From NCBI RefSeq assembly GCF_022921115.1, contig NZ_CP095075.1:372001-436000 (forward strand): a DNA stretch of 64,000 nt, in the 5' to 3' direction. Within the stretch, counting starts at the first letter, position 1. Every line of letters begins with the position of its first letter. Under the pieces are notes generated by a model. That model saw nothing but the letters and a program-made list of their open reading frames with translations, was not told where the DNA came from and made no database searches. This DNA is from Halobacillus amylolyticus (GTDB taxonomy: Bacteria > Bacillota > Bacilli > Bacillales > Halobacillaceae). Shown here one piece after another: positions 46,574 to 58,914 of the stretch. Made by a program: the position numbers and the translations under genes.

Positions 46574-47875
46574 GTGGGAGTAGAGAAAATCAACATGCCT
46601 CAGCTTGGTGAGAGTGTTACGGAAGGTACGATCAATTCGTGGCTTGTCCAGCCTGGTGACAAAGTAAATAAGTATGACCCAATTGCTGAAGTTATGACAG
46701 ATAAAGTAAATGCAGAGGTTCCGTCCTCATTTACTGGAACAATTAAAGAGCTTATTGCCCAAGAAGGCGATACCATCGAAGTCGGTGAATTAATGTGCCA
46801 TATCGAGGTTGAGGGTGCCGGCTCTTCTGCTAGTACGGCTGAAGAAAAGACGGATGATTCTCCTAAAGCAGAGTCACCTGAGAAACAAGTTTCAGAGAAA
46901 ACGGATACGAAACCTAAACAGGAAAAAGGCAATAAGAAGCGTTATTCTCCAGCAGTCATGACTTTAGCTCAAGACAATGACATAGATTTGAATCAGGTTG
47001 AAGGGTCAGGACGGGGCGGGCGAATTACCCGTAAAGACATTGAGAAGATCATTGCAAGTGGCGATATGCCTCGAGCCAAAGAGGAGTCAGCTTCTGAACG
47101 GCCTGCAGCTGAACGGGCTCCTGAGCAAGCAGCGCCAAAAACATCGGTATCAGCTCCAAATGTACAAGCTGGTGAAGGTGACGTAGAAATTCCTGTTACA
47201 GGTGTTAGAAAAGCGATCGCACAGAACATGGTCAAATCAACAACTGAAATTCCACATGCTTGGATGATGGTGGAAGTCGATGTCACCAACTTGGTCGAGC
47301 TTCGTAATTCACTTAAGAAGCAGTTTAAAGAAAAAGAAGGCTATAGCCTAACGTTCTTCTCCTTTTTCGTTAAAGCTGTTGCTCAAGCATTGAAAGACTA
47401 TCCCCAGCTTAATAGTACGTGGGCAGGAGATAAGATCATTCAACGTAAAGCGATTAATTTAAATATTGCTGTTGCCAAAGAGGACGAGCTCTTCGTGCCT
47501 GTTATAAAAGATGCTGATGAGAAGAGCATTAAAGGCATTGCACGTGATATTACCGACATTGCTGGCAAAGCACGCCAAGGCAAGTTAACTTCGAAAGATA
47601 TGGAAGGTGGAACGTTTACGGTGAACAATACCGGGTCGTTTGGTTCTGTGCAATCCATGGGTGTTATTAATCATCCCCAGGCCGCGATCTTACAAGTAGA
47701 ATCGATCGTGAAAAAGCCGGTTTATCAGGACGGCATGTTTGGAGCACGTGACATGGTCAATTTATGCCTATCCTTAGACCATAGAGTGTTAGATGGTCTA
47801 GTAGCTGGCAACTTCTTAGCAAGAGTCAAAGAAATTCTTGAAAACATGTCCAAAGAGCATACATCTGTTTATTAA
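46574..47875 (+). CDS. bkdB: Dihydrolipoyl transacylase (E2) of the branched-chain complex
   Basis: Core of the complex. It has an N-terminal lipoyl domain (1-76) with lysine in VMTDKVNAEVPS, an acidic/Pro/Ala linker, a peripheral-subunit-binding domain (YSPAVMTLAQDNDIDL...GRGGRITRKDI, ~115-150), a second linker, and a C-terminal catalytic domain with active-site histidine in CLSLDHRVLDGLVAG. It has 433 residues. GTG 46574 follows GAGGAGG. It is last in the operon and is followed by a terminator. Confidence 0.96.
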   Translation: MGVEKINMPQLGESVTEGTINSWLVQPGDKVNKYDPIAEVMTDKVNAEVPSSFTGTIKELIAQEGDTIEVGELMCHIEVEGAGSSASTAEEKTDDSPKAESPEKQVSEKTDTKPKQEKGNKKRYSPAVMTLAQDNDIDLNQVEGSGRGGRITRKDIEKIIASGDMPRAKEESASERPAAERAPEQAAPKTSVSAPNVQAGEGDVEIPVTGVRKAIAQNMVKSTTEIPHAWMMVEVDVTNLVELRNSLKKQFKEKEGYSLTFFSFFVKAVAQALKDYPQLNSTWAGDKIIQRKAINLNIAVAKEDELFVPVIKDADEKSIKGIARDITDIAGKARQGKLTSKDMEGGTFTVNNTGSFGSVQSMGVINHPQAAILQVESIVKKPVYQDGMFGARDMVNLCLSLDHRVLDGLVAGNFLARVKEILENMSKEHTSVY

Positions 47876-47912: not shown

Positions 47913-47920
47913 TCAAATAT

Positions 47921-48040
47921 GCAATTAATCGGTTTTTCGTGCAATTAATTAGTTTTATGTGCAATTAATTCAAATTTCATGCAATTATCCTGAATTTCGC
48001 GCAATTAATTTAAATTTCATGCAATAAAGCAGGATTAATA
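47921..48040 (+). repeat. Direct-repeat array upstream of the NERD gene (6 x 20 bp)
   Basis: Units start at 47921, 47941, 47961, 47981, 48001 and 48021, a strict 20-bp period. The left half is nearly constant (GCAATTAAT) and the right half is looser (about N3-4 then TTTCRT). The last unit is degenerate. All are in the same orientation. The array ends about 50 bp before the NERD gene start. Confidence 0.95.
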
Positions 48041-48088
48041 GTTAGGGGTAGAGAATATAACACAGAACTATATTGAAGGAGTGAATCA

Positions 48089-49033
48089 ATGATTAGAAAA
48101 AAGAGAAAACGGCCAATAAGACTTTTAAAACAAGGGGCGTTAGTAAGTAGAGTATTAGCGGATCAGTCAAAGGTATCTCTAATCGAAAAAGATTATGCAA
48201 CATCACTGGCAGGTTTTCGAGGGGAAGAATCCATAGATTATCATCTTAAGTTTTTATCAAAAGAAGCTCACATCCTTCATGATCTAAGATTACCAATTGA
48301 AGATTACTTCGTTCAAATGGATACGTTATTGATAACTCCAAAATTCCTAACCATCATCGAGGTTAAAAATATCGCAGGTAAACTCACTTTTGATGAAGAA
48401 CGGCATCAATTGGTTCGTTCGCATGATGGAAAAGAAGAGGGCTTTCTCGATCCCCTTATCCAAGTAAAAAGGCAGAAACTTCACCTTCAAAAGTGGCTCC
48501 GTTCAAATTCTGTGCTTACTCCCCCGATTGAAACCTTAATTGTCATTAGTAAAAATTCCACAATTCTAGATACAACAAACGAGTCAGTCATTCACAACGC
48601 TTATCTCCCATTTAAAATGAAAGAACTGCAGGATAAGTATAGAGAACATTTGCTTACTTCAAGGGAAATGGAGCAACTATGCGTTAAATTAATCGCCTGC
48701 GATACTCCATCCGATATCAATATTCTTCATTACTATGGCTTGAATGAACAAAACATTCGCAAAGGGATTCACTGTCCTAACTGCCTAGCTACTTCTATGC
48801 AAAGAAAACATGGGAAGTGGTTTTGCCAGGTCTGCAGGTTTGAGTCAGTTGAAGCCCACCTCCCGGCTTTAAAGGATTACTCCCTTCTTATAAAACCAAA
48901 AATCACAAATAGTGAGTTACGCGACTTTCTCCAGTTTTCGTCTCGAAGTATCGCCACATCAATTTTAAGATCAATGAACTTACCCACGTATGGAATGACA
49001 AAAGGGAGGGTATATGACTTGAAAAAATTGTAA
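48089..49033 (+). CDS. NERD-domain protein with zinc ribbon and putative C-terminal HTH
   Basis: A 314-residue protein. The N-terminal half carries a nuclease-related (NERD) domain with FRGEESIDYHL, QMDTLLITPKFLTIIEVKN and GKL, keeping the Glu, Asp and E-x-K residues of the PD-(D/E)xK fold. A zinc ribbon follows (HCPNCLATS...WFCQVC, residues ~230-250). The last ~45 residues (ITNSELRDFL to GMTKGRVYDL) look like a winged-helix DNA-binding segment. ATG 48089 follows GAAGGAG. Repeat arrays stand on both sides. Function is unknown; DNA binding and cleavage are inferred from the folds. Confidence 0.87.
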   Translation: MIRKKRKRPIRLLKQGALVSRVLADQSKVSLIEKDYATSLAGFRGEESIDYHLKFLSKEAHILHDLRLPIEDYFVQMDTLLITPKFLTIIEVKNIAGKLTFDEERHQLVRSHDGKEEGFLDPLIQVKRQKLHLQKWLRSNSVLTPPIETLIVISKNSTILDTTNESVIHNAYLPFKMKELQDKYREHLLTSREMEQLCVKLIACDTPSDINILHYYGLNEQNIRKGIHCPNCLATSMQRKHGKWFCQVCRFESVEAHLPALKDYSLLIKPKITNSELRDFLQFSSRSIATSILRSMNLPTYGMTKGRVYDLKKL

Positions 49034-49037
49034 ATAT

Positions 49038-49158
49038 GCAATTATCCAATAATATGTGCAATTAGTGCCTCAAATTGTGCAATTATCACTTATTATGTGC
49101 AATTAATTCAAATTTCGCGCAATTATCCTGTTTTTCCTGCGATTAAGTTCTTAATACC
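49038..49158 (+). repeat. Direct-repeat array downstream of the NERD gene (6 units)
   Basis: Units start at 49038, 49058, 49079, 49099, 49119 and 49139 (20-bp period, one 21). They share GCAATTAT/GCAATTAAT with the upstream array, in the same orientation; the sixth is GCGATTAAG. The first unit begins four bases after the NERD stop codon. No transcription terminator was seen for the gene apart from this array. Confidence 0.93.
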
Positions 49159-49259
49159 TCCCATTCAACCAATTGTTCCCCTCACTCGTTGCAAGTTAAT
49201 TGAAAGAACCCGAAGATCTTGGTAAAATGTTGATAATATTTAAAAAAGGAGCCATGTAT

Positions 49260-49691
49260 ATGGATTTCAATATTTATATGAATGATGTTGTCACCAAAGC
49301 ACGTGATGAGATTACCCAGGCAGGTTATTCAGAGCTAACGACAGCTGAACAAGTGGAGGAAGCTCTATCAAAGCAAGGTACGACACTTGTCATGATAAAT
49401 TCCGTTTGTGGTTGTGCTGGAGGCATTGCCCGCCCGGCAGCTTCACATGCTATCCACTATGATAAGCGCCCGGATCATTTAGTTACTGTTTTTGCTGGAC
49501 AAGATCGTGAAGCGACTGAGAGAGCGCGTCAATTCTTTGAAGGCTATCCTCCATCTTCTCCATCCTTTGCACTTATGAAGGACGGCAAGATCCAGACAAT
49601 GGTTGAGCGCCATGATATTGAAGGTTTTGAACCGATGGAAGTCATCGGTAAGCTTCAACGCAACTTTGAGGAGTATTGTAAAGAGGTATAA
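49260..49691 (+). CDS. brxB: Bacilliredoxin BrxB
   Basis: Thiol-disulfide protein that removes bacillithiol from S-bacillithiolated proteins. The DUF1094 family active site CGC is in [14 protein letters not shown] [19 protein letters not shown], and the conserved [17 protein letters not shown] and [10 protein letters not shown] follow. ATG 49260 is nine bases behind AAAGGA and gives 143 residues. ATG 49254 is also possible. It matches YqiW of B. subtilis in sequence and location. Confidence 0.96.
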
Positions 49692-58686: not shown

Positions 58687-58914
58687 ATGCCACAACAACA
58701 AGCTCAACAAGCACTTCAGCAGATTGCTCAAATTGCTCAACAATTGGAGCAGCAAGAACAACAAAATGCTCAACAACTTCAAGGACAAGGACAACCCCAA
58801 GGGGCAGCTATGAATTCACAACAACAAATGGCTCAACGTGAGCAAAATGCTTCTCAGCAGTTGCAGCAAATTCAGCAACTTGTACAACAGTGTCAACAAC
58901 AGTTGAATCAATAA
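58687..58914 (+). CDS. Glutamine-rich small protein
   Basis: A 75-residue protein of which more than a third is Gln, with runs such as QQAQQALQQIAQIAQQLEQQ and QQIQQLVQQCQQQLNQ. The hydrophobic residues (Ile, Leu, Ala) fall in heptad-like spacing, so two coiled-coil helices with a Gly/Pro/Gln break (residues ~33-42) are likely. There is one Cys and no membrane segment. ATG 58687 is nine bases behind AAGGAGG. No family was recognized; gamma-type spore proteins are also Gln-rich, but their repeats are not present. It is a single gene with its own terminator. Confidence 0.75.
   Translation: MPQQQAQQALQQIAQIAQQLEQQEQQNAQQLQGQGQPQGAAMNSQQQMAQREQNASQQLQQIQQLVQQCQQQLNQ

Follow-up and report, generated by a model that had tools for sequence, protein, structure and literature searches.

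A family of NERD nuclease-like genes in Bacillales usually adjoins arrays of its own private repeat

Introduction

What connects a gene for a nuclease-like protein with the short, evenly spaced repeats on either side of it? The question is raised by a locus on a 4,154,097-bp contig of Halobacillus amylolyticus, where a gene encoding a NERD domain, a zinc ribbon and a predicted C-terminal winged helix (wHTH) lies between two repeat arrays. A sequence-only reading of this DNA had suggested that the protein may bind its own arrays and may act as a nuclease, a silencer or a self-propagating/defence unit. Here we examine the locus in its window (the whole stretch of DNA analysed, 64 kb in length), the remainder of the same genome (G000), and related genes and repeats elsewhere in the order.

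Two kinds of known system come to mind. Plasmid iterons are tandem sites placed about two helical turns apart beside the gene for their own binding protein. In the REPIN–RAYT system the protein is a tyrosine (Y1) transposase and the repeats are palindromic REP sequences, or inverted doublets of these, that form hairpins. Such short repeats have been treated as an intragenomic population (PMC3116915, PMC8049555).

Results

The locus and its protein

The upstream array (47920..48028, + strand) consists of five units of T/C-GCAATTA at a 20-bp period, with GCAATTA starting at 47921, 47941, 47961, 47981 and 48001, followed by a sixth, altered unit (GCAATAA) at 48021. The downstream array (49037..49146, + strand) begins 4 bp past the stop codon of the gene and holds five GCAATTA units, starting at 49038, 49058, 49079, 49099 and 49119, plus GCGATTA at 49139; its steps are 20, 21, 20, 20 and 20 bp. 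The two arrays are oriented alike, the final unit of either one has a single changed base, and about 12–13 bp separate successive 8-bp cores. At a period of 20 the upstream array matches itself at 43 of 60 positions and the downstream array at 36 of 60; across periods of 14 to 33, none of 500 dinucleotide-preserving shuffles of either flank scored as high. The initial description of the arrays (six 20-bp units on each side, one step of 21, a common direction, a start 4 bp after the stop) was thus exact. No inverted repeat with both arms inside the arrays was found, and at a threshold of 35/60 the 64-kb window contains no further arrays of 20- or 21-bp period. A 33-bp tandem repeat of about two units at 58703-58795 is CAA/CAG-rich and unrelated to the arrays. 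The upstream neighbour (46574-47875) we take to be a dihydrolipoamide-acyltransferase-like gene, and the downstream open reading frame (49200-49691) is presumably a bacilliredoxin-like gene.

The gene itself (48089..49033, + strand; stop TAA at 49031-49033) encodes 314 amino acids. Residues 42-154 (48212..48550, +) form a NERD nuclease domain of the PD-(D/E)xK kind, which scores 67.6 bits against Pfam PF08378 (cut-off 22.1); in an alignment of 86 homologs the conserved residues include D78, E91, K93 and Q125, with E46, Q76, K93 and Q125 invariant and D78 and E91 at least 90% conserved. The zinc ribbon (48764..48844, +) carries four cysteines (Cys229/232/246/249) that are invariant among the 86 homologs, and in both of two alignments. 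An AlphaFold model built on the 86-row alignment (mean pLDDT 95.3) places helices at 274-281 and 286-295 and a strand at 308-310 near the C-terminus, a predicted layout that we read as a winged helix; the wHTH (48857..49030, +), with its helix at 286-295 and its wing near 300-310, is delimited by this model together with the covariation described below. A structure search matched no solved structure at E ≤ 0.001; its best, weak matches include the PD-(D/E)xK enzymes Bax1, BspD6I and Can2. In the Pfam scan the only other matches were sub-threshold (Auto_anti-p27 and Zn_ribbon_InsA), and neither a Rep domain nor a tyrosine (Y1) transposase was present. Matches in PADLOC were weak (PglW, 16.2 bits; PDC-M16A, 15 bits).

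Arrays beside related genes across Bacillales

An order-wide sample of 80 genes took the best match, among those listed, in 68 genomes, one per genome, and a further six in each of two of them. With an array defined as a self-match of at least 34/60 at a period of 19-22 within 400-bp flanks, a 20/21-bp array lies beside 63 of the 80 NERD–zinc-ribbon–wHTH genes, compared to 15 of 246 neighbouring genes; under a second criterion the counts are 65 of 80 and, for other genes, 16 of 228. The last upstream unit lies 19-458 bp ahead of the gene start in this sample, and the largest arrays reach 25 units, some of them nearly identical. In a second set, made of the best 80 of 320 confirmed loci and comprising in part the same genes as the other locus set, 63 of 80 loci have arrays compared to 4 of 39 other genes; five other spacing windows applied to the same flanks returned arrays at none of the 80.

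Adding 15 full-length loci of the window's genus and 40 Fictibacillus loci to the order-wide sample gave 135 loci. Arrays were detected at 112 (upstream only at 59, downstream only at 30, on both sides at 23) and went undetected at 23. Where both sides carry an array the two point in the same direction at 20 of 23 loci; the other three are inverted, one of them with a nearly palindromic core. A strand polarity of cores (60 A-rich, 36 T-rich, p = 0.018) was set aside as a blunt measure.

At E ≤ 1e-20 the gene has a match in 111 of 150 genomes of the order and none in 39. A sample of the phylum yielded matches in nine of 249 genomes, two of which are the window's own genome and another of the order; among the remaining seven, full-length matching is confined to G369, which belongs to the same class. 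G369 has arrays at two of four very distant full-length relatives and at none of seven NERD proteins in which the match stops short of the wHTH. Across Bacillus-like bacteria, then, one family of nuclease-like genes usually adjoins repeat arrays of its own.

At one Halobacillus locus (L042, G000:C1:2441988-2445932) the reading frame of the NERD gene stays open through the upstream array, so that the open frame spans 424 amino acids and its first part consists of SADKSGV repeats. In-frame arrays of this kind probably create spurious 'proteins' in databases.

Each lineage has its own motif, which changes with the winged helix

The sequence-only reading had proposed a search for GCAATTA repeats beside related NERD genes. 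Taken literally, that scan fails: no GCAATTA array was found within 1.5 kb of any of 29 other examined Halobacillus loci with a NERD match, and 16 other regions of the window's genome have such arrays with no NERD gene in the stretches read. Inspection of the flanks showed that many of these loci have the same array architecture built on a different core: ATGTCAGAAAA in three orthologs about 50% identical, and GAGCGCCGATAAAAG, TTATTTnAGAATCC and GTTAAAGAACAATC at others. The absence of GCAATTA from the 29 flanks led to the idea of lineage-private motifs, and privacy of the motif to each protein lineage is why the literal scan fails.

Correlations across the order between protein identity and motif similarity are weak (whole protein, rho 0.03, reached by 141 of 500 permutations; NERD, 0.056, 53 of 500; zinc ribbon, 0.080, 14 of 500; wHTH, 0.084, 19 of 500), because almost all pairs at that scale are too far apart; to resolve the relation, close relatives within a single genus are needed. 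Fictibacillus provides these, with arrays at 45 of 50 genes examined and hence 990 pairs. The same motif is shared by none of 840 pairs below 50% identity, by 8 of 89 at 50-60%, 13 of 28 at 60-70%, 11 of 17 at 70-80%, 6 of 10 at 80-90% and all six above 90%. Over 163 proteins the motif is shared by 75 of 12711 pairs below 50% identity and by all 11 above 90%. In all such comparisons of identity and motif the pairs are not fully independent. By these comparisons each NERD–zinc-ribbon–wHTH lineage has its own motif. One NERD protein of Fictibacillus enclensis (L384), 42% identical to that of the window, has practically the same core (TTTCGTGCAATTA).

Four pairs mark switches of motif (L188-L241, L190-L240, L240-L253 and L247-L262): their cores differ at an overall identity of 83-87%, and their NERD domains are 92-95% identical but their wHTH domains only 59-67% (93% and 62% for L190/L240). 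Among 46 pairs at least 60% identical, motif similarity correlates with identity of the wHTH (rho 0.58) and barely with that of the NERD domain (0.08). Over a set of 57 pairs the two coefficients are 0.63 for the wHTH and 0.26 for NERD; when motifs were permuted within ortholog clusters, the observed wHTH value was reached in none of 2000 permutations and the NERD value in 22 of 2000. Two of the eight clusters went slightly the other way, the motif agreeing more closely with NERD than with the wHTH. Sets of non-overlapping pairs gave a mean rho of 0.67 for the wHTH, 0.46 for the zinc ribbon and 0.29 for NERD. Two proteins lacking the C-terminus (L167, L243) and pairs with an uncomparable region were left out. 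Where NERD domains are at least 80% identical, the motif is kept in 10 of 11 pairs with a wHTH identity of at least 72% and in one of seven below that line, which was drawn afterwards.

Single residues point to the same region. In the 163 proteins, with phylogeny ignored, the top links between residues and tetramers of the motif are H287–GAGC, N304–GATA, H287–AGCA and R286–CATA; positions 286, 287 and 304, where the links are strongest, correspond to the recognition helix and the wing. Again with phylogeny ignored, links at p < 1e-7 number seven in 19312 tests of wHTH columns and one in 62696 tests of columns 37-222; at p < 1e-4 the counts are 30 and 63, a small contrast. A candidate role for R286 as reader of GCAATTA was unsupported (5 of 11 against 40 of 152 proteins, p = 0.15).

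The core of the array thus covaries more with the C-terminal wHTH than with the nuclease domain, and the data suggest that gene and sites evolve together like lock and key. The proposal that the protein may bind its own arrays gains strong support from this covariation, on which the predicted binding is based.

Arrays scattered through genomes

In the window's genome 43 GCAATTA pair matches were found, five of them the window's own, compared to none for the reversed control. All 19 TGCAATTA arrays examined are intergenic (small open reading frames made of the array itself being ignored), and 17 of these lie outside the window. The stretches read around the 16 other regions that hold these 17 arrays contain no NERD gene. 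Eleven of the 17 fall within about 272 kb (G000:C1:3056003-3328518), the gene being far off at 0.42 Mb. Neither an avoidance of divergent gene pairs (1 of 19 arrays against 69 of 369, p = 0.11) nor an excess at convergent pairs (6 of 19 against 60 of 369, p = 0.08) is significant.

Arrays of other motifs are present as well. Thirty-six evenly spaced 20-kb chunks of the same genome gave 13 matches at period 20/21, of which two look by eye like coding repeats. The other 11 represent ten sites: eight carry the motif of one of this genome's NERD genes or pseudogenes, and two (TAGCGGCTAA and CGTCCATAAA) are without a matching NERD motif.

The fit between arrays and genes across genomes is cleanest for GTGCATAGA. 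Among 18 genomes, GTGCATAGA arrays occur in three of the five that have the ortholog and in none of the 13 that do not (p = 0.012), in agreement with the predicted binding of the protein to its own arrays. The orthologs in those three genomes are 74-100% identical; of the two carriers without GTGCATAGA, one (75%) has changed to GACTCATAGA and the other (65%) has no detected array and adjoins a contig end. The five scattered GTGCATAGA sites of G088, a Fictibacillus genome, are no more than 154 kb away from the gene, and for four GACTCATAGA sites of G198 the corresponding figure is 57 kb (chance about 3e-6 and 7e-7, respectively, under uniform placement and with both cases picked afterwards). 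A wide spread, over many contigs or megabases, is seen instead for GTGCATAGA in G154 and for TAACGTG in G192 and G198. At the N position of TAACGTGNGATT all 32 units, from 12 sites, have G in G192; the counts in G198 are C 14, T 9 and G 7.

Other motifs fit less cleanly. GACTCATAGA arrays occur in five of the 18 genomes and a gene with that motif was seen only in G198, the genes of the others being partly read; AATCTGTC arrays occur in nine of the 18, with an adjacent gene in five. G088 has TAACGTG arrays, and of the seven of its nine NERD matches that were read, six have other motifs and one has no array. The sister species G006 retains TGCAATTA arrays, but no gene bearing that motif was found in it. 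Arrays do not, then, always track the gene.

Gain, loss and conservation

At the position of the window's locus, G006 has two units and no gene, G003 has a decayed six-unit array (one core perfect by eye) and no gene, and G005 has no array; the other seven members of the genus showed no gene at this place. Several genes of the family are broken by stops (L046 at G006:C1:918094-921519, and L200 and L201 in G000), from which gene loss seems frequent.

Scattered arrays were compared unit by unit between G000 and G006 at six sites, out of seven that could be placed through flanking sequence. Cores differ at 2 of 144 positions and spacers at 39 of 216; chains begin at an exact core, which introduces a mild bias toward conservation, and one site (L062) is anchored by a single flank. 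The seventh site (L057b) is degenerate, has lost its units and was not counted, and L054 was left out for want of a flank match. Sites chosen by exact pattern, a biased set, show 0 of 207 core and 36 of 271 spacer differences. A base-by-base alignment (core 49 of 194, spacer 79 of 246, p = 0.14) failed because unit numbers differ, and is superseded by the comparison of units. Cores left near-unchanged while spacers diverged suggest that the scattered cores were under selection until recently, or still are.

Four Fictibacillus genomes share a second locus at which the last 31 codons of the NERD gene occur together with five or six units, in the order found at the gene side. In the three genomes compared, 194-219 bp are shared with the gene-side array at 84-89% identity. 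This gene-tail array could be a copy of the gene-side array, or the tail of a dead second NERD gene; in either case it represents one ancient event common to the four species. At the 16 other array regions of the window's genome no gene remnant was found beyond one match of 21 residues (E 0.005), and these regions thus give no sign of having been copied from beside the gene. The early suggestion of a self-propagating unit gains plausibility from the second-locus array with its gene tail.

Discussion

We consider it fairly probable that gene and repeats form a two-part, co-evolving protein–repeat system in which predicted binding and DNA breakage drive spread, functionally like REPIN–RAYT. The NERD nuclease-like protein would use its C-terminal wHTH to read a core of about 8-12 bp that is specific to the lineage and recurs every 20-21 bp, that is, every two helical turns; given this spacing, we propose that one face of the helix can accommodate several protein molecules. 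Arrays of a protein's own core would flank its gene and lie scattered between genes of the same genome, new arrays arising by tandem amplification and, at least once, seemingly by copying of a gene-side array to another place. A change in wHTH specificity would bring forth a new set of arrays with a new core; upon loss of the gene its arrays could outlive it, and decay. The nuclease is presumed active, with binding and breakage driving amplification and spread, and a single protein would serve the repeats, which would behave as an intragenomic population. The sequences themselves show the association of gene and array, the privacy of the motifs, their coupling to the wHTH, the dispersal and the one gene-tail array; of what we infer beyond this, the putative binding partnership stands firmest. 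Action of the predicted nuclease at its own arrays would explain amplification, spread and private motifs alike. More tentatively, and short of an even prospect, these may represent a new class of intragenomic replicator, in which the wHTH of a nuclease evolves specificities that each found and maintain a private set of two-turn arrays.

The repeats might instead serve the host, the protein coating them to label the chromosome or being stored there for the cutting of invaders, with arrays kept by host need. The scattered arrays do look selected, given cores nearly unchanged between sister species whose spacers diverge; the catalytic residues are conserved, and one core position is uniform over 12 sites of one genome. 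However, the fast turnover of motifs is unlike that of a housekeeping label, the neighbours examined in the window and at five loci of the genus look ordinary and metabolic, PADLOC returned only weak matches, and 39 of 150 genomes of the order do without a match at E ≤ 1e-20. We regard a host role as unlikely; for the silencer and defence functions first suggested, this analysis yielded no positive evidence.

Two further explanations seem to us quite improbable. If the arrays were operators through which the NERD gene regulates itself, and scattered arrays by-products of recombination, the 59 of 112 array loci with an upstream array only, ending 19-458 bp ahead of the start, would be as expected, but not the 30 with a downstream array only, nor the retention of cores in scattered arrays. 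The other, no less doubtful, is that array, gene and array together are mobile and that solo arrays are what recombination between arrays leaves when the gene is lost, in the manner of solo LTRs. Arrays without the gene at the window's site (two units in G006, six decayed units in G003), the common direction at 20 of 23 double-array loci and the one solo array with a gene tail are in keeping with such tombstones; the 16 other TGCAATTA regions, which hold no NERD remnant except the 21-residue match and whose cores are mostly not decaying as relics would, speak against them.

The co-evolving protein–repeat system that we favor resembles REPIN–RAYT in that short, intergenic repeats are scattered through the genome and a gene lies beside its own repeat class (PMC3116915, PMC8049555). 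It differs in its NERD nuclease and wHTH, the Pfam scan having found no tyrosine transposase, and in its tandem repeats, spaced at 20-21 bp and mostly not palindromic. We read it as working like REPIN–RAYT while being unrelated to it. The nuclease domain is a member of the NERD family (PF08378), with the conserved PD-(D/E)xK residues; unlike the genes considered here, those of the seven NERD proteins that match only outside the wHTH have no arrays. Unlike plasmid iterons, the repeats belong to a 4.15-Mb contig and to a gene without a Rep domain, are dispersed, and have a motif for each gene lineage. The spacers in the window, at about 12-13 bp, are too short for guides of a CRISPR-like array, and a homing endonuclease gene destroys its recognition site by inserting there, whereas here and at 23 of 112 loci the gene has arrays of one core standing intact to either side. 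Among non-CRISPR systems with interspersed repeats, Altae-Tran et al. (2023) mention six and, in one section, describe two, with an AddB-like nuclease and a GGDEF protein (PMC10910872). These too place nucleic-acid enzymes beside regular repeats with variable spacers; the two described are not NERD systems, a comparison that covers those two of the six, and in the main text NERD appears once, in a legend on CRISPR auxiliary genes (PMC10910872). No published description of such a gene–repeat pairing was found in the literature searched, most subscription journals being outside its scope.

The pairing accounts for a common kind of bacterial repeat of which we found no description, and provides a case, in bacteria, of a DNA-reading domain and its target sequence co-evolving rapidly. 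It offers a large natural data set for decoding wHTH specificity, and a second, unrelated case in which to ask how populations of short repeats persist in bacterial genomes. If the replicator reading is true, there would exist, in many lineages, a natural and readable code of protein–DNA recognition.
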